Virus record (IMG/VR): IMGVR_UViG_3300009152_000202
Span: 1 to 24,248 of that record
Source of the DNA: a virus
Strand: one strand, 5' to 3'
Length of the DNA stretch: 24,248 nucleotides
Shown: piece after piece, positions 1,041 to 16,330 of the stretch
Numbering within the stretch: position 1 is the stretch's first letter
Layout: each line of letters opens with the position of its first letter
Notes under the pieces: generated by a model
Told to the model about the DNA's origin: nothing
Databases searched by the model: none
Seen by the model: the letters and a program-made list of their open reading frames with translations, nothing else
Program-made: the position numbers and the translations under genes

Positions 1041-3434
1041 CTAATATGCTGTTGCTGTATTGCCCATCATAGGCTCAACTACTTCAACCACAAGATTTTT
1101 TAATTGTTTATCGCCTATCTTAACTATTATGGTTGGAGAATATGTTGAACCAGCTTGTTGTTGTTGAGGCATAGCAGCTTTTAATATTTTTTCTAATCCA
1201 GCAGTATTGTCCTTACTTAAACTAAAACTGTTTATAGCGGTTATTAGTTCACCAGTTTGTTTAATAGCATTATTTGGACCAGTAGTTGTTTTAACATTTA
1301 GTTCTGCTATATTTTTTGTTATAGCTGCAAAATTAAAAGATTTATCTTTATCTAATTTATTAAGAGTAGAAACAATGTTAGATAATGCAAACGAGAAAAG
1401 TAAAAGACCAGCCATTACAATTGGATTAGTAAAGATTAAACCTACAGATGCCATAGCTAAAGCAAGAGAAAGAAGTGAGTCAGCAATACTATCTGTATTT
1501 GCTAATACCTTAAATAACTCTACAAAGTTCTTGACCAAATAACCTATGCCAGCATACATAAGTGCCATAGCTGCGGCAACTAAAGCAATTGGTACAAGAA
1601 CAGTAAATAATGAACCACCAAAAGCAGCAATTTCGGGTGCTGCTGTGCCTCCTGCTGCACCAACAGCTTCAATACCAGCAGCAACGGGAGCAGTAGCAGG
1701 AGCAGTAACAGCGGCTGTTATATTAAAAAATCTAAGTGCAGCACTAAAAGCTTGAAACGCTGATGCTAATTTTGTTATAATAAACATAGCAGTAAAAATT
1801 ACTAATAAACCACCAAGAATATATCTTGCAATTGGACCTTTATCAAGAAACTCAGTTATTGTAGATAAAAATCCCGATATTCCATCAACAACTGGTCCCA
1901 TAACAATAGCAAAATTAGCTGCTATTAAAGATAATTTTTCTTGAATAGGTATTGCTCTTTGTACTGCTTCATTTAATAATTTTTGTTCATTTGCTCTTTC
2001 AGCACTTATTCTTGCTGCTTTTTCAGCTTCTGCGTTAGACATAGAAAGAACACGGCTTGCTTCTTCAATTGATTTAAAGCCAGCAGCATCAGCAATCATT
2101 TTCTTTTCGTAGAAAGACATTTGATCAAAAGCTAAACCAGCATCATCTAATCTTGTTCTCAACAAATCAATTGCTTTTGCTGGGTTTTCTGCTGAAGCTT
2201 CTAACAATTCCATAGCATTAATAAATCCACCACCAAGAGCAGCATTAAGTTTACCAGCGGCTTGTGCAGCACCTTCAAACGTTTGGAACTTCTCTGCTAT
2301 TGAAATTAAATCATTTACAGCAACACCAGTAGCTTTTGATTGTATTTCAAGATCTTTGAACACATTTACCATATTATTGCCATAAGCTGCTAATTGATTA
2401 GAAGCTCCAGCAAAATCTTGTGCTACTTGTTGTGGAGATTTACCAATTGCTAAAGCAAGTCCAGCCAACTCTTCACTTGTTTTTCCTGCTTGAACTTCGG
2501 ACATTCCCATAATTTGTGTTAGGGTTCCAATTTGTTTTGCACTTTCAGCACTAGATATTCCAAGTCTATCTAATTTAGCAACAGAGATAGTTAGTTGTTG
2601 TTGAGCAATAGAATTAAGATTTGTGAATGTATTTAAGTTTGTATATAAGCCTTCAATTGCTCTACCAGCTTGCTCAAAAGAAATACCATAAGCAGTTGCT
2701 CCTCTTGAAGTATTTTCTAGAACACCTTGTAGTTGTTTATTTGCCCCTGCTACTTTTGCCAAACTTGCGGCGGCACCATCATAAGCAGTAAAAGCAATTG
2801 CTGTAGCTTCTTGAATTTTCATCAAAGTAGAACCAACAAGGTTTTGTATATTAACAGTATCTTTAATGGAAGCAGAAATTGCCTTCATATTTTTTACACT
2901 ATCACCATCTTTATCTAATAACTTACCAAAAAAAGTTTCTTTCCAACGAGCAGAAATACCCATAGTAGCTGAGATGATATCTTTTGTTTGTTGACCTAAC
3001 TTACCAGATATTTCAAGTTGTTCTTTTAAATTTAATAATTTCTTTTCTTCAAGAAGATATTCTTCTAATTTTGCTTTCTTTTGATCTTCACTAAGACTCC
3101 CAGATTCTAATTCAACCTTTAATGCGTCTTTTTTTGCTTGTAAATTAATTTGTAATCCGTCAATTTCTATTTGTTGAAGTCTTACAAATGCATCAAGATT
3201 TTCTTGTTTAGAATCAAGAAACTTAGCATTAGCTTCTAAAAGATCTTTTTCTAATTTTAGATCATCTAATTTTTTTTGTTGATATTCAGCAGATTTTCTT
3301 TGAAGTTCAAGATTTTGTTGAAGGCTTAATGTAATTGCTGCTAAAGCATTTTTTTCAGCGTCAGTTCTGGCTGTAATAGCTTCTAATCTTTGTTTTTCTG
3401 CTTCTAATATTAATTGATGTTCTTGAAGAGTCAT
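1041..3434 (-). CDS. Tail tape-measure protein (gp29-like)
   Basis: A 797-residue protein with tape-measure architecture. Residues 1-145 are an almost uninterrupted K/E/L/Q-rich coiled coil. Residues 150-530 are alanine-rich amphipathic helix. Three strongly hydrophobic segments follow at about 536-560, 608-634 and 650-690, as expected for a tape measure that contacts the host membrane. The C-terminus (about 767-797) has a short beta-forming IIVKIGDKQLKNLVVEVVE stretch. It lies immediately before a tube-initiator-like gene, as T4 gp29 lies before gp48. At about 0.15 nm per helical residue its length corresponds to a tail of roughly 120 nm, longer than expected from T4 gp29 (590 residues). ATG start; AAGGA lies about 13 bases upstream. 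Sequence identity to gp29 is not visible; the call rests on architecture and position. Confidence 0.8.
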   Translation of the reverse strand: MTLQEHQLILEAEKQRLEAITARTDAEKNALAAITLSLQQNLELQRKSAEYQQKKLDDLKLEKDLLEANAKFLDSKQENLDAFVRLQQIEIDGLQINLQAKKDALKVELESGSLSEDQKKAKLEEYLLEEKKLLNLKEQLEISGKLGQQTKDIISATMGISARWKETFFGKLLDKDGDSVKNMKAISASIKDTVNIQNLVGSTLMKIQEATAIAFTAYDGAAASLAKVAGANKQLQGVLENTSRGATAYGISFEQAGRAIEGLYTNLNTFTNLNSIAQQQLTISVAKLDRLGISSAESAKQIGTLTQIMGMSEVQAGKTSEELAGLALAIGKSPQQVAQDFAGASNQLAAYGNNMVNVFKDLEIQSKATGVAVNDLISIAEKFQTFEGAAQAAGKLNAALGGGFINAMELLEASAENPAKAIDLLRTRLDDAGLAFDQMSFYEKKMIADAAGFKSIEEASRVLSMSNAEAEKAARISAERANEQKLLNEAVQRAIPIQEKLSLIAANFAIVMGPVVDGISGFLSTITEFLDKGPIARYILGGLLVIFTAMFIITKLASAFQAFSAALRFFNITAAVTAPATAPVAAGIEAVGAAGGTAAPEIAAFGGSLFTVLVPIALVAAAMALMYAGIGYLVKNFVELFKVLANTDSIADSLLSLALAMASVGLIFTNPIVMAGLLLFSFALSNIVSTLNKLDKDKSFNFAAITKNIAELNVKTTTGPNNAIKQTGELITAINSFSLSKDNTAGLEKILKAAMPQQQQAGSTYSPTIIVKIGDKQLKNLVVEVVEPMMGNTATAY

Positions 3435-3450
3435 AGACTATAATAGTTCC

Positions 3451-3777
3451 TTATTTAAACGGCCACTTTAAGCCTGTATCACTTTCAAATTTAGAAACAG
3501 ATGCATCAAGTTCATATTTGTTTCTATATGTTCTTGGATCGTTAAGACCATATCTAACATATGAATCAAAATATCTTCTTTCACTAGCTAAAGCTCTAGC
3601 AAAGGATTCAACTTGGTATCTATCCCCAGTTACAGAAACAGGAGGTAAGAATACATCTTGTCCAAACATACGCTGAAGAATAAGCTTAACAGTTGAGCCA
3701 AACATTTCTAAAAATGATTCATTCAATTGATTGCTGTTTGTAAAGTCGATGTGGATTGGAACTATTTCTTTGGACAT
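3451..3777 (-). CDS. Conserved-looking small structural-module protein, unknown
   Basis: A 108-residue soluble protein that I do not recognise. The N-terminus is beta-like (VPIHIDF), followed by a helical, aromatic-rich half with FLEMFGSTVKLILQRMFG near residues 22-39 and a C-terminus ending GLKWPFK. No signal peptide or membrane segment. It has its own good ribosome binding site (GAGG six bases upstream of ATG) and a candidate promoter octamer 15 bases upstream. It lies between a large low-complexity protein and the tape measure. By T4 gene order this is around the gp27/gp28 hub positions, but I see no sequence support for either name. Confidence 0.75.
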   Translation of the reverse strand: MSKEIVPIHIDFTNSNQLNESFLEMFGSTVKLILQRMFGQDVFLPPVSVTGDRYQVESFARALASERRYFDSYVRYGLNDPRTYRNKYELDASVSKFESDTGLKWPFK

Positions 3778-3811: not shown

Positions 3812-5920
3812 TTATTTAATGTTAGCTAAAACTTTCCAACGATTAACTATTGTTTCGTTTAATAGTTCTTGTGTAAAATCAAAATTTTCTTGTATTTGTT
3901 TGTTGGTTAATCCATTTACTTTTAACTGATCAACTAAATCTTTAATTATTTGTTTAAATTGATCTTGAATATTTGGATCATTTACATTGACACTTTTAGC
4001 TCTACTTTTTATAGAACTATTTATTCTTTGTAATAGGGAAGCATTACCAGTAAATAAAGGAATTGGTTGGTTTATATCAATTTTAGTTTTTACTATTGCT
4101 TGTGCTTCTGGCGTTTGTGGAATTAAAGCAACTGGTGCTTGTGCTGCTGGTTGTGCTTGAGGTTGTGCTTGAGGTTGTGCTTGTGCTGCTTGTTTTTTTG
4201 CAAGTTCAACAACTTTATCACGAAAGCCTCCTCCATTTGTAATTACATCTGTAAAAGTAGTGTAATTAGCAATAGCTGGATTCTTCATTGCTATACTTAT
4301 ATTATCACGATAGTCTTTTTTAAGAGCAATAGTATCGGGCATATTATAAATAATTCTATATATAGAAGCAAGAGTTGTAGCTTGAGATATTGCATCAGTT
4401 TTAGACACCATATAATCTTTTACATCCTTAAGCTTTTTCTCATCAGTCTCATCAGTCTCAACAGGAGCAGCTTGTTGTTGAGATAGATTACTACTAGTTC
4501 TATTAACTCGTTTTGCTGTTTTTACTTGTTGTGGATTTAAAGATATTATACTTTGAGCAAGACTTCTAGCTTGTATCATATTAATCTTTATATTTTGTTT
4601 TTCTAAAGCTTTTAATAATTTAGCTGGTTGATCATTTATTTGATCACGTTTATAATTTTTTTGTATTTCGTTATCTATAGCTTCTTTAATTTCTTGCTTA
4701 AATCCAAATTCTTTTGCTAATTGTGGATTTGCTGCAAACAACTTAGAAAGAATTAAAACTGGATTTTTGCCTAGCTCTTTTGGAAATACTTTTTTATCTA
4801 TTTTATCTAATTGATTACTATAATGTTTTAAACTTTCTGTTTCTTGACCGGGATTAGTTGGTGGATCTTCTACATTTTCTTGTGTATCTTCTGTTTGCTC
4901 ACCCTCCGAAGATTGTGTATCTTTAGGTTCATTTGCATTTGAATCTGCTTCAGTAGACTTTCCATTTGCTTTTTCTATTATTTCTTTTGATTCCTTAATT
5001 TTATTAATAATGGTTTTTGCTTTTTGTAATAATTGATCAATAGATTCGTCAGTTAATAAATAACTAGGTGCATCTTTTTTAGCTTGTTGACCGCCTGTGT
5101 CTAAACGGTTTTTAAACTTTTCAATTAATTTAATTAATTGTGTTTTAGTATAATTATCTAAAATATTACTAATTCTAGTGTTTGTTAGTGCAAAGTGTAT
5201 TTGTTCTTTAGTAAACCCTTTTAAAAAATTTTTAAGTAGTGATGGATCACGTTCTATAAGTTCTGGTTTTTTAAATATTAAAATACTAGTTATATATGTT
5301 TCAAAAAAATATTTAAAATTAGGAGCAGCCTTATCATCAACTGTCATAGCCTCCTCTGGTGTAGCTTCTCCATGAAACTCTAAATAATCCTTTGCATTTT
5401 TAACTTCTTGATCAGTTTGCTCAGATAAAGTTACAACTTTTGGCTTAGCAGATTGATCTTTTTGTGGGTTTTTAGACAAAGAAGTTTTTTTACTTCTTAA
5501 ATCTGTAACATTAATACCTCTTGCATTTAAATGAACAGTTAAAAATGGAATAATAATGTTTGCTATTATTTGCTCTGAAAATTGTTTTTGTTGTGCTTCG
5601 TCGGTTATACCAGCAGCTTGAAGTGCTAACATCATTTTTCCATATGTTGCTCTTCTTACATCTATCATACCAGCTTTTGGTTGAACTCTTCCTCCACCTT
5701 TATCAGCACTAGTTCCTTTAGCTTGTTTGGAAGCCGTTGTTGTATCACTTTGATTTGAAGGTTGGGTTGAAGGTTGGGTTGAAGGTTGGGTTGTAGTAGA
5801 GCTACCTTGCTCGCTTGGTTCTTCAGCTTTGTTTGGTTTTCCAAAAAAAGCATTTCCAAGACCAGAAGCAGCACTTTTAAACATATCAGTTACTCTACCT
5901 TCTCTTAATCTATCAGACAT
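3812..5920 (-). CDS. Large low-complexity virion-module protein, unknown function
   Basis: A 702-residue, lysine-, glutamine- and asparagine-rich, mostly helical protein that I cannot assign. Residues 1-30 contain an amphipathic helix followed by AFFG. Residues 40-60 are a disordered linker with three PSTQ-type repeats. Residues 85-140 form a possible folded helical domain. A long acidic, E/T/Q-rich linker occupies roughly 320-370, a QAQP repeat linker is near 590-605, and the last 100 residues are again a helical domain. It sits where T4 has gp27/gp28, between the gp26-like and tape-measure genes, but nothing resembles the gp27 hub fold. It starts at ATG with AAGGAAA upstream and has its own terminator-plus-promoter gap, suggesting separate, perhaps high, expression. 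Alternatives include a hub or tail-lumen protein, or an assembly chaperone. Confidence 0.85.
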   Translation of the reverse strand: MSDRLREGRVTDMFKSAASGLGNAFFGKPNKAEEPSEQGSSTTTQPSTQPSTQPSNQSDTTTASKQAKGTSADKGGGRVQPKAGMIDVRRATYGKMMLALQAAGITDEAQQKQFSEQIIANIIIPFLTVHLNARGINVTDLRSKKTSLSKNPQKDQSAKPKVVTLSEQTDQEVKNAKDYLEFHGEATPEEAMTVDDKAAPNFKYFFETYITSILIFKKPELIERDPSLLKNFLKGFTKEQIHFALTNTRISNILDNYTKTQLIKLIEKFKNRLDTGGQQAKKDAPSYLLTDESIDQLLQKAKTIINKIKESKEIIEKANGKSTEADSNANEPKDTQSSEGEQTEDTQENVEDPPTNPGQETESLKHYSNQLDKIDKKVFPKELGKNPVLILSKLFAANPQLAKEFGFKQEIKEAIDNEIQKNYKRDQINDQPAKLLKALEKQNIKINMIQARSLAQSIISLNPQQVKTAKRVNRTSSNLSQQQAAPVETDETDEKKLKDVKDYMVSKTDAISQATTLASIYRIIYNMPDTIALKKDYRDNISIAMKNPAIANYTTFTDVITNGGGFRDKVVELAKKQAAQAQPQAQPQAQPAAQAPVALIPQTPEAQAIVKTKIDINQPIPLFTGNASLLQRINSSIKSRAKSVNVNDPNIQDQFKQIIKDLVDQLKVNGLTNKQIQENFDFTQELLNETIVNRWKVLANIK
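4151..4184. repeat. 12-bp tandem repeat encoding QAQP units
   Basis: Unit TTGTGCTTGAGG on the plus strand, two perfect copies plus a partial third. It encodes a glutamine/alanine/proline linker in the C-terminal third of the 702-residue protein. Confidence 0.85.
5755..5790. repeat. Three perfect 12-bp tandem repeats encoding PSTQ units
   Basis: Unit TTGAAGGTTGGG on the plus strand repeated exactly three times. It encodes a disordered PSTQ linker near residues 45-57 of the 702-residue protein. DNA-level identity suggests recent slippage, so copy number may vary between relatives. Confidence 0.95.
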
Positions 5921-5941
5921 TATTGTTGTTTCCTTTTTAAA

Positions 5942-5949
5942 TAAATAGT
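5942..5949 (-). promoter_or_regulatory. Candidate late promoter octamer ACTATTTA
   Basis: Transcript-strand ACTATTTA 21 bases upstream of the 702-residue gene start and 11 bases downstream of a hairpin terminator. On the plus strand the overlapping bases 5949-5956 read TATAAATA, the T4 late promoter consensus, but no plus-strand gene follows it. Confidence 0.55.
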
Positions 5950-5960
5950 ATAAATATAAG

Positions 5961-5985
5961 AAAAGGGATCATTTAGATCCCTTTT
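5961..5985 (-). terminator. Hairpin terminator after the gp26/small-ORF unit
   Basis: Perfect 10-bp stem (AAAAGGGATC / GATCCCTTTT) with a 5-base ATTTA loop, starting two bases past the stop of the upstream gene. The stem ends in CCCTTTT on both strands, so it could act bidirectionally. It separates the baseplate-assembly genes from the next promoter. Confidence 0.85.
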
Positions 5986-5986
5986 A

Positions 5987-6211
5987 CTATTTCTTTTTAG
6001 AAGCCTTCTCCATAGCCTCTGCTTCGTCTTGTATCTGTTTAGCAAGTCTTTCTACAAACCACATTCTAAGTCCTACTGGAAGGCTATATGCTTCGATAAA
6101 CGACCATCCTCCATGATACTTTAGGATAAAGAATTGTTCATATACTTGTTTCTGGTATTCATCACTTAGGCCAAAAAAAGTCCGATGTGAACGGAACCTC
6201 CAGCCTTGTTT
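5987..6211 (-). CDS. Small ORF overlapping gp26-like gene; possible tail-assembly chaperone extension
   Basis: About 74 residues from an ATG at 6211 that lies inside the gp26-like gene, overlapping it by 50 bases in the +1 frame. The open frame extends further upstream to 6328, but that part is probably only shadow. Residues beyond the overlap look conserved: YEQFFILKYHGGWSFIEAY, then LPVGLRMWFVERL, then a charged helical C-terminus ending KASKKK. It occupies the T4 gp51 position (26-51), but is much shorter than T4 gp51. No good ribosome binding site precedes an ATG at the overlap, and the upstream frame contains a 7-T run just before its stop. It may therefore be made as a frameshift extension of the upstream protein rather than from its own start. 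Confidence 0.65.
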   Translation of the reverse strand, partial: KQGWRFRSHRTFFGLSDEYQKQVYEQFFILKYHGGWSFIEAYSLPVGLRMWFVERLAKQIQDEAEAMEKASKKK

Positions 6212-7013
6212 CATATGAACAAGAGCGACATTCAAAATCGTGTGACAAATCCATATTTGGAGCAATCTTAGCATATGCTTGTCTAATTGCTTTTGAGTCT
6301 TTTGCTGGAAGTGTAGATACAACTTCATTTAATATTTTAGGATCTGATAAACCATTTATTGATTTTATCATTAATCTTAATTGTAGAGATAGAATTGAAT
6401 CCATTTCTTTCTTTGCTAATTGTGCTTCTCTTACTTTTGAACTTATGAAGTTTTCATCTTTACTTGTTAATAACTTTAATTCAACTGGAACTTTGTATAT
6501 TGGAATTTGAATAACAAAAGTATTATCTTCTGTTCTTATTATTCCTTCTTCTTCCAATTCTTCATCGCTTATTGGATCTTTTACATTACAAATATTAAGA
6601 TCAAATTCATATCCTTGAACTTTACCACAAGAAGGACAAGTTACTTTTGTTTGATAATCTGCACCATAAGCAGATTTACGAGCAGCAACAATTACTGCGT
6701 TTTTATCACCAACTAATAAGGTATCCATATTAATTGATTTATCTACAACAATATCTTGTAATACTTTTTCTAATGCCATACCTTTTTTGAGTAGGGATTG
6801 ATTTGACAAAGTATCTTCATCTTTGGCTGTCATGTATCTAATTTCAATTGTATCTTTACCATTTAGTGGGTGTCCTTCTGGATAGAATACACCTCTTGAT
6901 GGTAAATCTACAATCTCAATTGGAGTTACAAAGGATAATCCTGTAGCTCCTGCTATATCATTTTGTTGGGGTTTTTTTGTATCTAACCCTAGTCTATCTA
7001 GGTTGTTTCTCAT
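6162..7013 (-). CDS. Baseplate hub/tail assembly protein, gp26-like (T4 baseplate protein family)
   Basis: A 283-residue soluble protein. It carries the signature I associate with the gp26-like T4 baseplate family of marine myoviruses: VDLPSRGVFYPEGHPL near residues 35-50, then IEIRYMTAKDEDTLS near 57-70, LLKKG near 74-78, and VGDKNAVIVAARKSAYGADY near 101-120. Four cysteines form two C-x-x-C pairs (126/129 and 262/265), probably one structural zinc site. In T4, gp26 is needed for hub assembly; its place upstream of the tape measure also fits a tail-assembly chaperone. The last codons read through a 7-T run at 6173-6179 and stop at TGA, while a second frame continues across it. The ATG at 7013 has only a weak GAGTGA as ribosome binding site. 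Confidence 0.8.
   Translation of the reverse strand: MRNNLDRLGLDTKKPQQNDIAGATGLSFVTPIEIVDLPSRGVFYPEGHPLNGKDTIEIRYMTAKDEDTLSNQSLLKKGMALEKVLQDIVVDKSINMDTLLVGDKNAVIVAARKSAYGADYQTKVTCPSCGKVQGYEFDLNICNVKDPISDEELEEEGIIRTEDNTFVIQIPIYKVPVELKLLTSKDENFISSKVREAQLAKKEMDSILSLQLRLMIKSINGLSDPKILNEVVSTLPAKDSKAIRQAYAKIAPNMDLSHDFECRSCSYETRLEVPFTSDFFWPK
6173..6179 (-). other. Candidate ribosomal frameshift site (T7 run)
   Basis: On the transcript strand the sequence is GAC TTT TTT TGG in the gp26-like frame, five codons from its stop. Moving +1 (or -2) on the seven Ts keeps Phe-tRNA paired with TTT and enters the frame that encodes the conserved-looking 74-residue ORF. A fusion of roughly 345 residues would result. 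Confidence 0.35.
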
Positions 7014-7026
7014 ATATCACTCGTTG

Positions 7027-7671
7027 TTAAATAAGTATTACACTAATATCACTACATTCACACCACTCTGGTAAGAATGTGACTGTTATTTCATTGGCTT
7101 CATCAGACGCATAATCAAGAGAACCAAAATCTATTTTAGTTATTTTTGGTTTTTTAATAATAAAATCTACTGCAAGATTTTTTCTATTGTCTGTCTCTTT
7201 AAGTTCTCTTTCTTCTAAAATTTTTGAATTTTCTTTTTTTTTAGTTTCTTGATCAATATAAGTAGCATAACTTGATATTGTTATTGTATTACAAAAAGTA
7301 GCTAAATCTAACATTGAAGTTCTATTCTGTTCTGTTATTAAATTTTGATTTAAATAATCAAAAAACATTTTTTTCCAATTTGAAATATTTTTTTGCGTAC
7401 CTGTATCTGGTAGTACGTCTACAAACGTAATTGTTATAGGTTCCCAATTTACTTCACCAACATGGAAGTAATGAACAAATTGGTTACCATGTAATCTTTC
7501 AAATGGAATATTTAATGAGGGCAAATTAAGTTTCTTAACTAAAAGACAAATATTTTTATCGTTGTCATCTCCCTCCCAATTAGAAACACTAGTATCATTA
7601 AATCTAGCAACGAATAAGTTTTTCTTATTAAGTTCTAATGTGTAATATTTATCTTGATTTGCCCAGAACAT
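7027..7671 (-). CDS. Second tail-tube-fold protein (gp19 paralogue)
   Basis: A 214-residue protein next to the tube gene that shares its ending. KITKIDFGSLDYASDEANEI near residues 174-194 matches the tube protein's WIKSVNFGSLEYGSDDISDV in spacing and key residues (FGSL-Y-SD), followed by a terminal beta strand. An internal HVGEVNWEPITITFVDV near 70-86 mirrors the tube's YPGRVSWKEVSVTIIDP. A charged K/E-rich insertion occupies about 140-170. In contractile phages such divergent tube-fold paralogues serve as tube initiator, terminator or baseplate ring; T4 gp48/gp54 are examples. Which role applies here is inference. The start lies 11 bases after the tube gene's stop with AGGAA overlapping that region. 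Confidence 0.65.
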   Translation of the reverse strand: MFWANQDKYYTLELNKKNLFVARFNDTSVSNWEGDDNDKNICLLVKKLNLPSLNIPFERLHGNQFVHYFHVGEVNWEPITITFVDVLPDTGTQKNISNWKKMFFDYLNQNLITEQNRTSMLDLATFCNTITISSYATYIDQETKKKENSKILEERELKETDNRKNLAVDFIIKKPKITKIDFGSLDYASDEANEITVTFLPEWCECSDISVILI

Positions 7672-7682
7672 TTATATTCCTA

Positions 7683-8306
7683 TTATGGTTCAAGTGATGA
7701 ATCAAATCTTGTGCCTGTAATTCTCACATCGGCCCAATCGTAACGGAAGGTCATTGAAACATCGCTGATATCATCTGATCCATATTCAAGCGAACCAAAG
7801 TTAACGCTTTTAATCCAAGCATTATTAAGTGTCCAAGTTTCAAGAGCATTACCATTGGCATCAATTTGAATTATTTCAATTTGTGCGAATTGTGCTGTTG
7901 CGGTTCCTTTAGCCATTGTTCTTAAGGTTGAAAGGGCTGAGCCACCTGTTATAGCAACACCAGCCGCAGTTGGAGATTGATAACCAGCAGAAAGAAGAAC
8001 ATTATATAAAGCGTCAGTTACATCGTTTGCTGCTGCTCTAAGTGTGCTAGCGTTGGCATCGTCAGCAGCAGGTAATCCACCACCAGCAGGGTCAATGATG
8101 GTTACAGATACTTCTTTCCACGATACTCTACCGGGATAATAGAAAGCGTGTCCAAGAAAGTCGTGCTTTGTTTCCGATACATCAAATGATGGTTTATCAG
8201 CTTTTTTAGCAATAAAGCTTGGTAGCTTATCGGATGCTGCTCCAAATCTTATTAAGAATTTAAACTTTCTCTTTGGTTCTAATGCTGCTTCGTTCCAGAA
8301 TGCCAT
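7683..8306 (-). CDS. 19: Tail tube protein (gp19-like)
   Basis: A 207-residue protein, somewhat longer than T4 gp19 (163). It begins MAFWNEAALEPKRKFKFLIRF, typical of marine T4-like tubes, has the YPGRVSWKEVSVTIIDP strand near residues 56-72, and ends with VNFGSLEYGSDDISDVSMTF near 168-187 and a final WADVRI strand. An alanine-rich stretch at about 75-135 forms the variable part. It directly follows the sheath gene, as 19 follows 18 in T4. Good ribosome binding site GGAGGA eight bases before ATG. It should stack as hexameric rings forming the inner tail tube. Confidence 0.88.
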   Translation of the reverse strand: MAFWNEAALEPKRKFKFLIRFGAASDKLPSFIAKKADKPSFDVSETKHDFLGHAFYYPGRVSWKEVSVTIIDPAGGGLPAADDANASTLRAAANDVTDALYNVLLSAGYQSPTAAGVAITGGSALSTLRTMAKGTATAQFAQIEIIQIDANGNALETWTLNNAWIKSVNFGSLEYGSDDISDVSMTFRYDWADVRITGTRFDSSLEP

Positions 8307-8343
8307 TTATTATGTCCTCCAACCTTTATATATTAAGTAGTTA

Positions 8344-11145
8344 TTAATCAGCAAATGACGCACCGCTATCGGTAATTGTAAAATCAATTGCGATAAATTC
8401 AATTGCTCTAGCTGGCTTCAAGAATATCTTGGCATACATTATGTTTCTATCAACAAGATCTGGTGTAGTAGTTGTGCTGTCAAGTATTACACGGTAGTCA
8501 GTAAGACCCAATCTTGATTTAACGGTTCCAAGGAATGGATTTACTTGACCTGTAAATCTTGACCAAGTTACTTGAACATTTTGATCGAAGAGAAGTCTTG
8601 ATGCAATCTTTGAAATCTCGCGTTTAACGAAGATCATCATTCTACGAACGTTAATTCTGTCAAGAGCAGATGGAGTAACTTGAAGTGTCTTTTGACCAAA
8701 GATTACGATACCTTCTGCTGGGAATTGTGCGATAGGATTAATGTTGTTTTCATAAAGTGTATCTCTTTCTTTTGATGAAAGTTTTTGTGATACATTAATA
8801 ACTGGAACACCACCACGACCTTCTGTTAAACCACCTCTGGTAAACCCTGCTGGGGCAAACCAAAGTTCTTGTGAAGATTGTCCATAAGACATAGCTCCAA
8901 GGGCTACAACTGAAGGAGGAACGAAGATGCTTCTATTACTTAATGTATCGCGGATTTGAACCCAAGGATAATATGTAGCTGCGTAGCTTGAATTTAATCC
9001 TCTAGTCTTTAACACTGAAGAAACATTACTAACATTACCAATATATCTACTTGTTCTTGAAGTAACTTTTGCTTCTTGTTCTGGTATATAAACATCTGGA
9101 AGATCAATTATAGCAAGTGCATCTGCTCTATTCTCACAAGTTTGAATAAGTTTGTTAGTTAATCCTGCAAGTGTTAAGCCGGGGATAGTTATAATATCTG
9201 TAACCAAACTTTCTGGATCAGCACAAGTATCAATTGCTCTGCTGTATGTACTATATACTGATGAATTCTTTTCAGTAGAAGTGGAAGACATTAATGAGTT
9301 TCTTAATGGTTCTGCTTCTGTTACATCAAATCCATCGAAACCACCATAGAGAGGCATTGTGAATTTATTATAACCAGCATTTATTACTGTTCTATATCCG
9401 CTTGTTCCGTTATAAGAAGTTCCTGCTGCTCTTGAACCAACTTTATAGTCAAGTCCTGTTCCGCCTGCTGAGGAAGATAATTCATCAAGTGAGAATACAA
9501 AGGAAGTTGAAGTAAAAGAACCAGAAGAATCGTAAGCTGCTCCTGCTACATCTGCTGGTAAAGCTCTTGTAAAATCGTAGTATGTTGGGTCAAAGGTGGT
9601 TGTAGAAACACTTTCACCAACAGTAATACCAAAGTAAGCGTTGCGTGGATCTCCTAATCCTCCTGCTGAAGAAGAAATGCGAAGTGGAATTGATGGGAAT
9701 TGAATTGATGCTGTTAGATTTACTGCTGTGAACAAGAAGTTACCAGCACTATAAGTATTACCAAACCCACCAGAAACAGGTGAAGCAGAAGGAGCAACAG
9801 TAGAAGAACCAGATGTTACGGTAAAGGTATTAAAGCGTGAAGCACCAAAGAAACCAAATGGTAGATAAGTTGGATCTACGTTACCAGCATCAACATCGTC
9901 ATTCATTTCAACTCTTATTATATTAGACAAGTTATTATAAGTTCCATATTCTACAAGTCTTCTATTTGTTTCATCCCAAGTAGTAAACTTATCACCTATT
10001 CTTGCGGCAATATAATCTGGTGAAGCTGGATTAAGATTTACATTTACATATCTTTCTACAAATTGTGGTGTGTTATCATTATCAGTAGCTCTTCTAACTG
10101 AAAGTGTAAATGTTCCATAATCATCAAAGTCTGTCAATGGTGCTCTTACATCACTAATAGAAATTTTATAATTCTTTTGTTCGTATTCTCCACTATCTAA
10201 TGTAGCAATACGGAATAATTTTTGTTGTGCGGAAGCAACGTATGAAGCAAAATTAGTAGTAAGATCTTGTCCTATTACCCAACCTGTTTTTGATTCTTTT
10301 GAGTCCATTAAGAAGTTGTTACATTTAACAGTGGCATTACCAAGAGGGGCTATAAACCCGTAAGTTGTTGTAGAAATATCTACTAACTCTTGTAATGATC
10401 TTTCGTATGACTCACCAAGCCAATAATTTTCAATTGTTGCGTCGGAGGTTATATCTGAGTTAGTAAGGATTGGATTAGTATTGAATACTTTTCTTATATA
10501 GAAATCTGAGTCTGCGTTAAAATTAAAGTTAGAGGTGTAGTTACCAGAAGGGCCTGTTAATACTGCTCTAAATTCTCCATTGTTAGCAACAGAAGAAATT
10601 AGAACGTTTGCGCCTTGAACTGGTGTTGAAGTTGAAGCAACATTACCAGTTAATTGTATTGAGCCACTTTGGATATACCAAATAGCAGCGAGAGTTCCAG
10701 TTACAGTAGAAGCAGCAGAAGCAGAAGGAATTATAAATAAACCATAAGCTCCACCACCAGTATTACCAGCAGCAAAATTATTATCAGTTTTCCATCCAGC
10801 ATATCCAGCAGCAGTAGGGGAAGAATTTTGTTTACCAACTAATCTAACTACATTTAAAGCTGGTGTGTTCTTTAACCAAGCTTGGGCGGCATAAGCAGCA
10901 TAAGTAGTTCCTATATAGTTTCCATCACGCCATACATCATCACCAGATTTACCGGGAATTGGATTACCAAATGTTTCAACAAATTGTGAGAACGAAGTAA
11001 TATAAACAGGTCGCATAGTTGGACCTTTTTCAAATCTACCAATTACGGTTGGACCAGTTAGTGTTGAAATTGCTGGAAGTTGGGAGTTGTCGATCTCTTG
11101 GACTTGAACACCGGGAGATACGAAACGATAAGATGTAATAGCCAT
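8344..11145 (-). CDS. 18: Tail sheath protein (gp18-like), unusually long
   Basis: A 933-residue contractile sheath subunit. The N-terminus is canonical: SPGVQVQEIDNSQLPAI near residues 10-26, TGPTVIGRFEKGP near 30-42, SFSQFVETFGNP near 51-62, and a W-L-K-N-TPALNVVRLVG segment near 90-104. The C-terminal third is equally typical, with INVRRMMIFVKREISKIASRL, then DYRVILD and MYAKIFLKPARAIEFIAIDF before the end. Between about residues 110 and 690 lies a large S/T/G-rich region containing the variable protruding domains. T4 gp18 is 659 residues, so the surface domains are expanded. Own promoter octamer 39 bases upstream and AGGAG about 11 bases before ATG fit high expression. Confidence 0.95.
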   Translation of the reverse strand: MAITSYRFVSPGVQVQEIDNSQLPAISTLTGPTVIGRFEKGPTMRPVYITSFSQFVETFGNPIPGKSGDDVWRDGNYIGTTYAAYAAQAWLKNTPALNVVRLVGKQNSSPTAAGYAGWKTDNNFAAGNTGGGAYGLFIIPSASAASTVTGTLAAIWYIQSGSIQLTGNVASTSTPVQGANVLISSVANNGEFRAVLTGPSGNYTSNFNFNADSDFYIRKVFNTNPILTNSDITSDATIENYWLGESYERSLQELVDISTTTYGFIAPLGNATVKCNNFLMDSKESKTGWVIGQDLTTNFASYVASAQQKLFRIATLDSGEYEQKNYKISISDVRAPLTDFDDYGTFTLSVRRATDNDNTPQFVERYVNVNLNPASPDYIAARIGDKFTTWDETNRRLVEYGTYNNLSNIIRVEMNDDVDAGNVDPTYLPFGFFGASRFNTFTVTSGSSTVAPSASPVSGGFGNTYSAGNFLFTAVNLTASIQFPSIPLRISSSAGGLGDPRNAYFGITVGESVSTTTFDPTYYDFTRALPADVAGAAYDSSGSFTSTSFVFSLDELSSSAGGTGLDYKVGSRAAGTSYNGTSGYRTVINAGYNKFTMPLYGGFDGFDVTEAEPLRNSLMSSTSTEKNSSVYSTYSRAIDTCADPESLVTDIITIPGLTLAGLTNKLIQTCENRADALAIIDLPDVYIPEQEAKVTSRTSRYIGNVSNVSSVLKTRGLNSSYAATYYPWVQIRDTLSNRSIFVPPSVVALGAMSYGQSSQELWFAPAGFTRGGLTEGRGGVPVINVSQKLSSKERDTLYENNINPIAQFPAEGIVIFGQKTLQVTPSALDRINVRRMMIFVKREISKIASRLLFDQNVQVTWSRFTGQVNPFLGTVKSRLGLTDYRVILDSTTTTPDLVDRNIMYAKIFLKPARAIEFIAIDFTITDSGASFAD

Positions 11146-11184
11146 TTGCTTTAATACTCCTGCTTATTTAGAATTAATCAATAA

Positions 11185-11192
11185 TAAATAGT
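11185..11192 (-). promoter_or_regulatory. Candidate late promoter octamer ACTATTTA
   Basis: Transcript-strand ACTATTTA 39 bases upstream of the sheath start codon and a few bases after a hairpin at the end of the gp15-like gene. Confidence 0.55.
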
Positions 11193-13380: not shown

Positions 13381-13403
13381 TCAATAAATACTCCTCAATA
13401 AAT

Positions 13404-13411
13404 TAAATAGT
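13404..13411 (-). promoter_or_regulatory. Candidate late promoter octamer ACTATTTA
   Basis: Transcript-strand ACTATTTA 23 bases upstream of the gp13-like start codon, just after the T-tract of the capsid-gene terminator. Confidence 0.55.
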
Positions 13412-13479: not shown

Positions 13480-15237
13480 TCAAGAACCGCTTTCGCCAAG
13501 AAGACCACGAATAATGACCAAGCCGTACATATCTGGCTTAACCATTTTCTTAGCGTAACGTGTCATAACACCTTTGCGTGGGACGAAATCGTCAGTACCA
13601 AAGATGGTAGGAGTTACTTGTAATGGAACGTATGGTGCGTATACATAGCCAGACTCAAGGAATGAGCTACCCTTACGACCAATTAGAATTACATTACGAA
13701 GGAAGTATGGATCAACGTAAACGTCAAACTTCTTGGAGATTGAACCAACGTTAACTGCTCCAATTTCACCCTTCTCATCTTCGTGAGTTACTTTAGCTCT
13801 GAAACCAGATGTAAACTCAAGAATGTTTGCAGTTTCTGGACCACATACGATGAAGTTTGCACCACCGCGAAGTGTCTTTCTGTGAATTTGGGCTGATACA
13901 TCATTGATTGTTTCAATGAGTGTTTCATACCATTGTGACACAGTACCAGTGAAGTCTGGGGCTTTGGTTGATGCACCAACTTCAACACCAGTTATACGAT
14001 TTACGAATAAACCGGGTGATCTTGACCAGTAGAACGAACCAGCAGTTGCACCTTTGATAAGGTCTTCAAGAATTTCACGGTCGATTTCAAGACCGATTTG
14101 TTCAGAAAGAATTGAAGTAAGTTCAACTTCTGCATCAAGATTATGATAAGCATTAAGGTCTTGACCAAGTTCTGGTGTCCATTTTGCTTTCATTTTCTTG
14201 GTGACAGCAGTAATTGATACTGAGTCAATTTTTATATCAATTTCTGGAATGTTTGAATTAGCCTCAAGACCCCAAGTTGATTGACCAGCAATTGCACCAA
14301 GAGCGTTGGTTGAACCAGCAGCTACTGATGTACCAAAAGCATCAGTAATTGGGAAGGTGCATTGAACTACGTTATCAAGTGCAGTTTTAAGTGTAGTAGC
14401 GGATTCTGAGCCAGAACCCTCAACAACAATAAGAACATTTGTTGGGTCTAATGGGTCAATTCTTGTAAGACGACGAACCAAACGGCCATCAGTAATTGAT
14501 GGTAAGCCCGAGCTTGCTGTAGCGAAAGAAACTGCTACAAAATCTCTACCGTTAAATTGAGCACCAGTAAGTGAAGCAAGTGTAATAGTTGCAGCAGCAA
14601 ATTTTGATCCGCTTACAAGGTCTGCATCAAAACGAAGAAGACTTGAAAGAGCGGTGTAAGCAGCAGTACCACCATCAAACACTGGAATACCACCATCGGT
14701 TACCGAACCAGAAGCAACTATAGTTGTTGCGATAACGGCTGAACCAGTTGCTGATGAATAACCATTATTCATATTGTAGAAGCCTTTCTCAGCATTAGCA
14801 CCAGTTAGTGAAACACCACCAGTGATTTGTTGACCAAGAACGCCACCACCGTAAAGTGAATCATTTGAACCATAACCAAGTCTTGGAGCACCGTTGCTGT
14901 CCGAAACTTTGAAGTCAAGGAAGAAGATAAGACCGGATGGAAGTGACATTGGTTGAACTGAAACTAAATCGTTGGCGATAAGACCAGCGAATACTCTGCG
15001 AACTATTGGGAATGCGACTGCTGCGAAACCTTCTACATCGCCACCAGCCATTGTGTTTGACTCACGAAGAAGCTCTTTTGCTTGGTTCTCAAGAAGACGA
15101 GCCATTGTGTGTCTTGATCTTTCTGTACGAATGCCTTCAAGAAGACCTGTTTTTTCCCATTTATTAAGAAGGGCTGTTCCTTCTTTTGCGAGGTCACGGT
15201 GAACCATGCCCTCTGTTAACTTTTCTATAATAGACAT
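13480..15237 (-). CDS. 23: Major capsid protein (gp23-like)
   Basis: A 585-residue HK97-fold capsid protein of the T4 type. The hallmark stretch GFAAVAFPIVRRVFAGLIAN (residues 70-89), followed by DLVSVQPMSLPSGLIFFLDF (90-109), parallels T4 gp23 around LVRRAMPNLIAYDICGVQPM and GPTGLIF. The first 60 residues are charged and helical and end LLRES; L57-R58-E59 fits the L/I-x-E rule for prohead protease cleavage, so the mature protein may start at residue 60. The C-terminal domain has typical strands (YVYAPYVPLQVTPTIF; GVMTRYAKKM) and ends VIIRGLLGESGS. Strong AAGGAG ribosome binding site, terminator behind it, TGA stop. It follows the scaffold gene by 25 bases, as 22-23 in T4. No gp24 vertex paralogue is seen in the window. 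Confidence 0.96.
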   Translation of the reverse strand: MSIIEKLTEGMVHRDLAKEGTALLNKWEKTGLLEGIRTERSRHTMARLLENQAKELLRESNTMAGGDVEGFAAVAFPIVRRVFAGLIANDLVSVQPMSLPSGLIFFLDFKVSDSNGAPRLGYGSNDSLYGGGVLGQQITGGVSLTGANAEKGFYNMNNGYSSATGSAVIATTIVASGSVTDGGIPVFDGGTAAYTALSSLLRFDADLVSGSKFAAATITLASLTGAQFNGRDFVAVSFATASSGLPSITDGRLVRRLTRIDPLDPTNVLIVVEGSGSESATTLKTALDNVVQCTFPITDAFGTSVAAGSTNALGAIAGQSTWGLEANSNIPEIDIKIDSVSITAVTKKMKAKWTPELGQDLNAYHNLDAEVELTSILSEQIGLEIDREILEDLIKGATAGSFYWSRSPGLFVNRITGVEVGASTKAPDFTGTVSQWYETLIETINDVSAQIHRKTLRGGANFIVCGPETANILEFTSGFRAKVTHEDEKGEIGAVNVGSISKKFDVYVDPYFLRNVILIGRKGSSFLESGYVYAPYVPLQVTPTIFGTDDFVPRKGVMTRYAKKMVKPDMYGLVIIRGLLGESGS

Positions 15238-15262: not shown

Positions 15263-16291
15263 TTATTTAATACCTGCTAAACGACGCATTCTTTCCACTT
15301 GTGGAGTTGCTGTATCGTTTTGCTTTGTTTGAACTACAGTTGAAGAAGATCTACTTATTGCTTCGCTAAGTGATTTTGGAGCATTAACTTTGTTATTGCC
15401 CTGCACGGTGCTTTGAAGTGTTTCGTAAATTGTCTTTGCTTCATCTGCTGATTTTGCGTTTGATAGTGCTTCGACAATTTTATCTTTTTGTCGCTCATTC
15501 AAGGAGTTACTATTTAATACGCGGTTTGTGAAAAGAAGTTTAGCATTTGATAAACTCAAACGATCAAACCTCTCTTTAAGTTGTGATATTTTGCTCTCGT
15601 AATTTTCTACTTTATTTGCGAGTGCTTCAGTAATCTTTTCAAGTTTTTTATATTCAACTTGTAAATTTTTATTTTGTCTTGTAAGCTTTTTGTTTTCTTC
15701 AACCTTAACTTCAACTTCTTCTTCTGCTTCAAGTTGAACTCTTTTGGCTGCTGCAATATCTTTTACATATTCTATTTCAAGTGTGTTTGCTGGATATTCA
15801 ATATTACCATATGGAACTACTCTTGCATCTACTGTAAGTTTTTCATAGAGATCCAAAAGTTCTCCTTTATCAATCTCATATTCTTCGCCTTCTTGAAGTT
15901 GTGCTGCTTGTGATTGAAGAAAGTCGTCACGGGACATAGCAGAACCATTATTACCAGAAAGATCAATTCCAGTATCTTTTGCCATTCCATCAATATCGCC
16001 AAGTGTTAAATCAATTGTAATTTGTTCCCCATCTTCTGGGCAAGGACACATCTTTTGTCCGTCTTTAAAAGCTTGTTCTGTTTGATCTCCAACACTTCCA
16101 CCATTAATACCAGAGGTTGAACCCTCCGATGCTGCTGGTGAATTAAAGCCTTCGTCTTGTTCTAATAAGGTTTTTATTGCGTCTTTCACTTCAGTTGAAT
16201 ATCTTTCTAATACTTGTGCTTCTGCATTCTTAAGTGCAGCTTCTTTTAATGCTGTAGCATCTATAATTGCTTGTTCTAACAAAGAAGACAT
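15263..16291 (-). CDS. 22: Prohead core scaffolding protein (gp22-like)
   Basis: About 342 residues from the ATG at 16291, chosen because GGAG lies nine bases upstream; a TTG at 16306 in the same frame overlaps that GGAG. The protein is strongly acidic and helical with a long K/E/L coiled coil at about 190-255, a short C-P-C-P-E motif near residue 82, and a C-terminus ending VERMRRLAGIK, an ending I associate with scaffold proteins of marine T4-like phages. Several L-x-E sites could be cut by the prohead protease during maturation. It directly precedes the capsid gene, the T4 22-23 arrangement. gp22 family members diverge strongly, so position carries much of the assignment. Confidence 0.82.
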   Translation of the reverse strand: MSSLLEQAIIDATALKEAALKNAEAQVLERYSTEVKDAIKTLLEQDEGFNSPAASEGSTSGINGGSVGDQTEQAFKDGQKMCPCPEDGEQITIDLTLGDIDGMAKDTGIDLSGNNGSAMSRDDFLQSQAAQLQEGEEYEIDKGELLDLYEKLTVDARVVPYGNIEYPANTLEIEYVKDIAAAKRVQLEAEEEVEVKVEENKKLTRQNKNLQVEYKKLEKITEALANKVENYESKISQLKERFDRLSLSNAKLLFTNRVLNSNSLNERQKDKIVEALSNAKSADEAKTIYETLQSTVQGNNKVNAPKSLSEAISRSSSTVVQTKQNDTATPQVERMRRLAGIK

Positions 16292-16322
16292 TAAGGAGTT
16301 CTCCAATATATATAATCAAAAA

Positions 16323-16330
16323 TAAATAGT
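16323..16330 (-). promoter_or_regulatory. Candidate late promoter octamer ACTATTTA
   Basis: Transcript-strand ACTATTTA 31 bases upstream of the scaffold ATG. It could drive the scaffold-capsid pair, since no other copy lies between those two genes. A seventh exact copy at 16457-16464 lies inside the small gene upstream and may be chance. Confidence 0.55.

Follow-up and report, generated by a model that had tools for sequence, protein, structure and literature searches.

The window analysed here, a stretch of 24,248 nucleotides (IMG/VR record IMGVR_UViG_3300009152_000202), encodes a large protein, which we call X. Most likely, X is a T4-style head-internal cargo protein with a scaffold-derived C-terminal tag. 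We are fairly confident that X is loaded into the head via a gp22-type tail, is cut by gp21 at both ends and, most likely, is ejected; we infer this tail targeting, cleavage, packaging and ejection from sequence. X is regarded as a passenger of the head because it has the gp22 tail and gp21-like sites, and because its body is swapped between phages, as expected for a loaded or injected protein.

Gene and domain organization of X

X is a 702-codon ORF with an ATG start at positions 3812-5920 on the minus strand. The original prediction, which gave no strand, had described a 702-residue K/Q/N-rich protein with PSTQ and QAQP repeat linkers. The ORF, the composition (K 11.0%, Q 8.5%, N 6.8%) and the linkers (QPSTQPSTQPS at residues 45-55; QAQP at about residues 581-595) were confirmed. 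The description as helical beads on flexible linkers also holds, as far as can be judged from the sequence. The helices were seen only in a low-confidence model: AlphaFold2 on a two-sequence alignment of X gave a pLDDT of 33, which is unusable.

The following segments of X are all on the minus strand, and a slash marks a candidate cleavage site. Residues 1-7, MSDRLRE (5900-5920), form a leader ending in a prohead-protease-like LxE/G site. Residues 8-27, GRVTDMFKSAASGLGNAFFG (5840-5899), are a predicted helix of the mature N-terminus, and residues 28-77 (5690-5839) are, by sequence, a disordered PSTQ linker. D1 (residues 78-167; 5420-5689) ends with TLSE/Q and is homologous to the X of another phage, L041 (E 1.5e-15). 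D2 (residues 168-330; 4931-5419) is followed by an acidic linker with a net charge of -10 (residues 331-362; 4835-4930). D3 (residues 363-480; 4481-4834) is basic, with a net charge of +11, and helical in the low-confidence model. D4 (residues 481-580; 4181-4480) is also helical, and a QAQP linker follows (residues 581-610; 4091-4180). D5 (residues 611-689; 3854-4090) ends with LLNE/T and is homologous to L041 X (43% over 72 aa). The gp22-type C-terminal tail, TIVNRWKVLANIK, occupies residues 690-702 (3815-3853).

Another contig, L001, carries a near-identical homologue, and L002 carries a 581-aa version that is 85% identical. No family match was found for X and its variants in Pfam, PHROGs, NCBIfam, PADLOC or PDB. 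Furthermore, tblastn with X and the L011 variant gave no match in 50,697 phage records, and searches for D1 and D5 elsewhere returned only the three already known carriers.

The phage group and the gene slot of X

The window phage is a distant T4 relative. A sister contig, L116, encodes gp21 (7907-8503; PF03420, E 5.5e-29), portal (PF07230) and terminase; there is no gp21 gene within the 24-kb window. By capsid protein, the nearest cultured relatives are Microcystis phage Mel-JY01, Rhodothermus phage RM378 and Flavobacterium phage immuto. These belong to the far-T4-like group, which has been described for RM378 and aquatic viromes (PMC7198788).

The position given in the original prediction, next to the tape measure, is right: X is located between the gene for a gp26-like baseplate protein (6162-7013, minus; PF12322, E 7e-17), its upstream neighbour, and that for the tape-measure protein (1041-3434, minus; assigned by position and size) downstream. 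We surveyed this slot in about 100 loci, gathered with the sheath and the gp26-like gene. The usual order is the gp26-like gene, an overlapping small ORF (ORF2), a gene for a protein of about 110 aa ending with WPFK (Y) and the tape-measure gene. In the window's clade, X is an additional gene after the small ORF; most surveyed loci have no X, and it is also missing in L015 and L048. Thus, X does not stand in the place of T4 gp27/gp28, as had been proposed, but is an extra, clade-specific gene. The lengths of X across phages are 142, 234, 241, 283, 376, 380, 581, 631 and 702 aa.

In the window, Y has 108 residues (3451-3777, minus). It showed no family match. In an alignment (A5), the Glu of [LIM][ND]E near residue 20 is invariant, and the C-terminus, TGLKWPFK, is conserved. 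Because of this Glu, Y too might be a prohead protein, perhaps processed by the prohead protease. In L047 and L051, Y is joined in frame to an X-like cargo that has no gp22 tail. In L065 (4557-4784) and L073 (3283-3510), a protein of 75 aa with a hydrophobic stretch is encoded between Y and the tape measure.

The small ORF, which ends at 5987, overlaps the gp26-like gene in the +1 frame at a TTTTTTTGG run (6171-6179, minus). This run is kept in 58 of 59 related loci, and in 8 loci ORF2 has no upstream ATG, GTG or TTG. The overlap looks like a programmed frameshift that yields a gp26-ORF2 fusion, comparable with the G/GT tail chaperones of other phages, which are encoded between tube and tape measure. 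Directly after the tube protein gene, a second tube-type protein (phrog_4542) is encoded at 7027-7671 (minus), perhaps a paralogue that acts as tube initiator or terminator.

Transcription signals of X

A hairpin terminator with a 10-bp stem (5961-5985) is located just upstream of X, between ORF2 and X, and similar hairpins were found in L002, L007, L003, L032, L016, L019 and L021. The element ACTATTTAWT occurs 8 times in the window against 0.5 expected. One copy, ACTATTTATT (5940-5949, minus), lies about 20 nt upstream of the X start codon and is the putative late-promoter element of X; it is conserved in relatives. The element also precedes the sheath, neck and gp22 genes, and is a putative late promoter of this phage group. 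The copies at 5940-5949, 11183-11192, 13402-13411 and 16321-16330 (minus) are all just upstream of late genes. A sigma-70 promoter for X was rejected, with 14 sigma-70-like matches against 11.6 expected in the window. Given the hairpin upstream and the element that it has in common with sheath, neck and gp22 genes, X is probably transcribed separately as a late gene, from its own late promoter. The original prediction had given X its own terminator and promoter signals; the terminator was found, and the probable promoter is the ACTATTTAWT element.

X and the scaffold gp22 share a C-terminal tail

X ends with the C-terminal signature of gp22, the prohead scaffold (RWKVLANIK); the W in this tail is the sole Trp of the whole protein. 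The gp22-position scaffold of the window (15263-16306, minus) is encoded directly upstream of the major capsid gene and ends with ...RMRRLAGIK (tail, 15266-15292). The assignment of gp22 in this lineage is purely positional, and hhalign of this protein against T4 and P-SSM2 gp22 gave no significant result.

When 173,076 sequence windows were scored with a gp22-tail profile, gp22 being excluded, all six complete X proteins ranked 1-6, each match lying 1-5 residues from the C-terminus. In the reciprocal search with a profile of the X tail, gp22 ranked first and second. Among 319 ORFs from the window and related contigs, the regular expression R[WM]xxLAxI had 13 C-terminal matches, each to X or gp22. 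In a control in which the C-terminal 60 residues of 575 proteins were shuffled, the C-terminal motif had 15 real matches, all gp22 or X, against a mean of 0.1 in the shuffles. Moreover, in blastp comparisons of several X pairs with unrelated cargo, mainly the last 16 residues were aligned, with 69-81% identity. The constant part of X is [LIV][NS]E/[ST]xxxRW[KR]xxAxxK.

The gene right before the capsid gene ends with RWQKLAGIIK in immuto, ILNESNNVVERMKKLAGIVK in Mel-JY01 and ERIKRLAGL in RM378. In all three, this gene was the top C-terminal match in the genome parts examined. Even the LxE site that precedes the tail of X is present in the gp22 of Mel-JY01 (ILNESNNVVERMKKLAGIVK) and of several contigs (ESLNEGAASRWKMLAGIK, VNESVSSRWKTLAGI). 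We regard the C-terminal tail as an old feature of gp22. X carries the C-terminal R(W/M)xxLAGI tail by which gp22 is recognised; it has neither the gp22 N-terminal region MSSLLEQAI..KEAALKNAE nor the position before the capsid gene.

A core protein of 140-150 aa, Z, adjoins gp21 in L116 (9580-9999), L138 (6283-6735) and L146 (4997-5419). The Z C-termini GGWKQIK, VWKSLVGDKK and TWKALAGN are perhaps related to the gp22 tail.

Candidate prohead-protease sites in X

T4 gp21 sites have the form LxE. The T4 gp23 record reads FLTE/A at the known cut of this protein, near residue 65. At the corresponding place, the major capsid protein gp23 of the window (13480-15237, minus; phrog_138, E 7e-70) has a likely maturation site, LLRE/S, and LLRE/S or LLRE/A is conserved. 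In T4, gp23, gp24 and the internal proteins lose terminal peptides to gp21, which trims Alt at both ends (PMC9958956, PMC9026906).

Candidate LxE sites were found at both ends of the cargo in 9 of 9 complete X proteins. The N-terminal sites are LRE/G, LKE/A, LNE/G, INE/A, IKE/Q, INE/G, LEE/G and LDE/G, and [LIV][NS]E/[ST] directly precedes the tail in all nine (the C-terminus of L003 X is beyond the contig end). Thus, in every complete X, an LxE motif would split a terminal targeting peptide from the body, as in the internal proteins (IPs) and Alt of T4. In the window X, only MSDRLRE precedes the first site, and this leader is otherwise unlike the T4 N-terminal capsid targeting sequence (CTS).

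The motif LSE/Q at residues 165-167 of the window X closes D1. At this place, L041 has LSE/S and then its tail, so that X can possibly be read as a polyprotein.

After the leader, EG..DTF/DTI-like segments occur in other X proteins and in some leader-bearing proteins of the core region, with weak statistics. The motif LxE[GA]..D is about threefold enriched near N-termini (14 early matches versus 16 in 3.4x residues), and half of the early matches are X. Because of this modest enrichment and the share of X in it, the motif lends weak support to a common mature N-terminus.

Many ORFs around gp21 share a leader M..LTE..LR.IIREEL..L.E, which often ends with LxE/G (most of 26 pattern matches). Examples are located at 7356-11036 of L116, 9541-12163 of L126, 121-1463 of L123 and 2401-3033 of L118. 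These ORFs probably encode further head-targeted proteins with a leader resembling a capsid targeting sequence.

Cargo swapping and domain shuffling

The sheaths of the window and L003 are 95.5% identical, and their X proteins are unrelated. L002, with a sheath 96% identical to that of the window, lacks D2, which has about 160 residues. In L041 X, the window's D1 and D5 are present in reversed order, with D5 N-terminal and D1 C-terminal. The L003 version of X is common to L011, a phage only 69% identical in gp26.

Several cargo variants contain glycine-rich hydrophobic stretches, e.g. PLTGLLIILIGGLGTLTGAKIAKN, as if for a membrane. These variants are encoded at 9797-10927 of L016, 14176-15318 of L019, 6577-8415 of L003 and 14331-16226 of L011. 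Judged by eye, no such stretch is present in the window X.

Tagged proteins beside gp21 in other lineages

We searched 2.9 million viral contigs with two DNA patterns for the tail. Most matches by far were gp22, encoded directly before the capsid gene; X was also matched, as was a third class of large variable proteins of 556-836 aa with an N-terminal leader and a C-terminal tail. Proteins of the third class are encoded directly between gp21 and Z in L165/L172, L193, L204, L209 and L222. In L212 and L231, a tagged ORF clipped by the contig end is located right before Z, and L226 has a tagged ORF with no gp21 or Z nearby. Fragments and short spurious ORFs were not counted (L169, L171, L188/L218/L225/L230, L205, L217 and the genome match L185), nor was the genome match L186, which had no row in the C-terminal listing.

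The leaders of the third class are MILTESQIKEAIREEF... or WSSFEKDKLIIEGFRDFF..., reminiscent of the T4 CTS. The tagged proteins beside gp21 have WSSFEKDKLIIEGF-type leaders, unlike the window X. The 836-aa tagged protein is homologous to the slot protein of L003 and L011 (blastp, 4e-13; hmmsearch, 1.6e-13). From this homology and the position between gp21 and Z, it follows that the same kind of protein adjoins the tape measure in the window's clade and the prohead protease elsewhere.

Proposed mechanism and alternative explanations

We propose that during prohead assembly the last approximately 13 residues of X, a copy of the gp22 tail, would draw X into the scaffolding core. gp21 would then cut X after LxE, at LRE/G near residue 7 and at LNE/T at residue 689, and perhaps also between domains at LSE/Q 167. 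The cleavage would free a string of helical domains on flexible linkers, about 680 residues long, inside the head, and the freed X would most likely enter the host along with the DNA. From the example of T4 IPI and Alt, one may guess that the cargo acts in anti-defence or in host take-over. Its fast turnover would fit an arms-race role like that of T4 IPI.

The position of the X gene among tail genes speaks against a head protein. The original prediction had offered three readings, namely a tail-lumen protein, an ejected protein or an assembly factor. Of these, the ejected protein is favoured, although via the head, and the tail readings, having only the gene position behind them, are not supported. 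The location between gp26 and the tape measure would suit a tail-lumen or tail-tip protein, and if Y is a tail protein, its fusions with X-like cargo in L047 and L051 point to the tail. However, a tail protein would have no reason to carry the gp22 tail, other phages encode equally tagged proteins between gp21 and Z, and most relatives make a tail without X; we consider this reading quite unlikely. A displaced gp27/gp28-type hub that has diverged beyond recognition is far less probable still, and we give it almost no credence. Gene position alone favours it, and no hub family in PHROGs, Pfam or PDB matched X, in agreement with the original remark that it resembles no known hub. Since the slot is empty or filled with unrelated sequence in close relatives, and most surveyed loci have no gene there, X is not an essential hub, and the gp27/gp28 identity was rejected.

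An accessory scaffold or core assembly factor would share the tail and the LxE sites with a cargo protein. In this role, X would enter the prohead by means of its gp22-type tail and, as with T4 gp67/gp68, would be lost through digestion by gp21, so that it would have no function as an injected protein. The related tail in distant relatives (WKALAGN, WKSLVGDKK) of Z, which is encoded beside gp21, is consistent with such a role. Nevertheless, a range of 142 to 702 aa and full replacement of the cargo between near-identical phages would be odd for a factor with conserved partners, and the gene is missing from L015 and L048. In addition, the 702 residues of the window X contain no more than five [LI].E[AGSTQ] sites, so that it would not be cut into small peptides. 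We therefore judge an assembly factor improbable and prefer head cargo.

Beyond the window, we consider it nearly as likely as not that far-T4 phages own a portable tag of about 13 residues, copied from the scaffold and placed at the C-terminus of unrelated proteins that are packed, cut at both ends and injected. Some of these, like X, would be polyproteins with shuffled domains parted at LxE sites, giving several injected proteins per gene.

Comparison with known systems

With their fast-evolving bodies, which resemble nothing, the proteins that phages inject from the head are difficult to find. A searchable mark for them is the short tail of scaffold type. With the two DNA patterns, seven more tagged proteins encoded in the prohead-core cluster were found as candidate cargo, and a predicted injectome can be listed for an aquatic phage group that is abundant and little studied.

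Within the far-T4-like group, gp22 of immuto, Mel-JY01, RM378 and the contigs has the R(W/M)xxLAGI tail in common with X, in some cases with LNE/S or LNE/G before it. However, the bodies are unrelated, and X is no gp22 paralogue over its length. The proteins between gp21 and Z resemble X in the tail, the LxE site, the large variable body and the N-terminal leader. They differ in that they belong to the prohead-core cluster and have a longer T4-CTS-like or LTES..IREE leader, whereas the leader of the window X has 7 residues.

In P22, the basic C-terminus of the scaffold binds the coat protein and can bring fused cargo into the shell (PMC9962691), and we take it as a working model for X. As proposed for X, the cargo of such engineered fusions enters the capsid via the coat-binding C-terminal part of the scaffold (PMC9962691); these fusions are artificial, and their P22 segment is longer and unrelated in sequence. 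In SPN3US, a gp21-like protease removes propeptides from ejection proteins and from the prohead protease, and it was suggested that a C-terminal propeptide directs the protease to the prohead interior (PMC7411985). In contrast to X, cargo targeting there was inferred for long N-terminal propeptides.

A close parallel is offered by the T4 IPs and the ADP-ribosyltransferase Alt: the core carries them, gp21 processes them (Alt at both ends), and they are ejected (PMC9026906). IPI, IPII, IPIII and Alt combine carriage in the prohead core with LxE-type sites and removable terminal peptides, as predicted for X, and like X they are variable and dispensable between relatives (PMC9026906). X has no sequence similarity to them, is up to 702 aa long and multi-domain, and its gene stands in the tail cluster. 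The T4 IPs are marked by an N-terminal CTS of about 10 residues, whereas the recognisable signal of X is a C-terminal copy of the gp22 tail. The tail thus offers a targeting signal that can be tested and that differs from the N-terminal CTS of T4.
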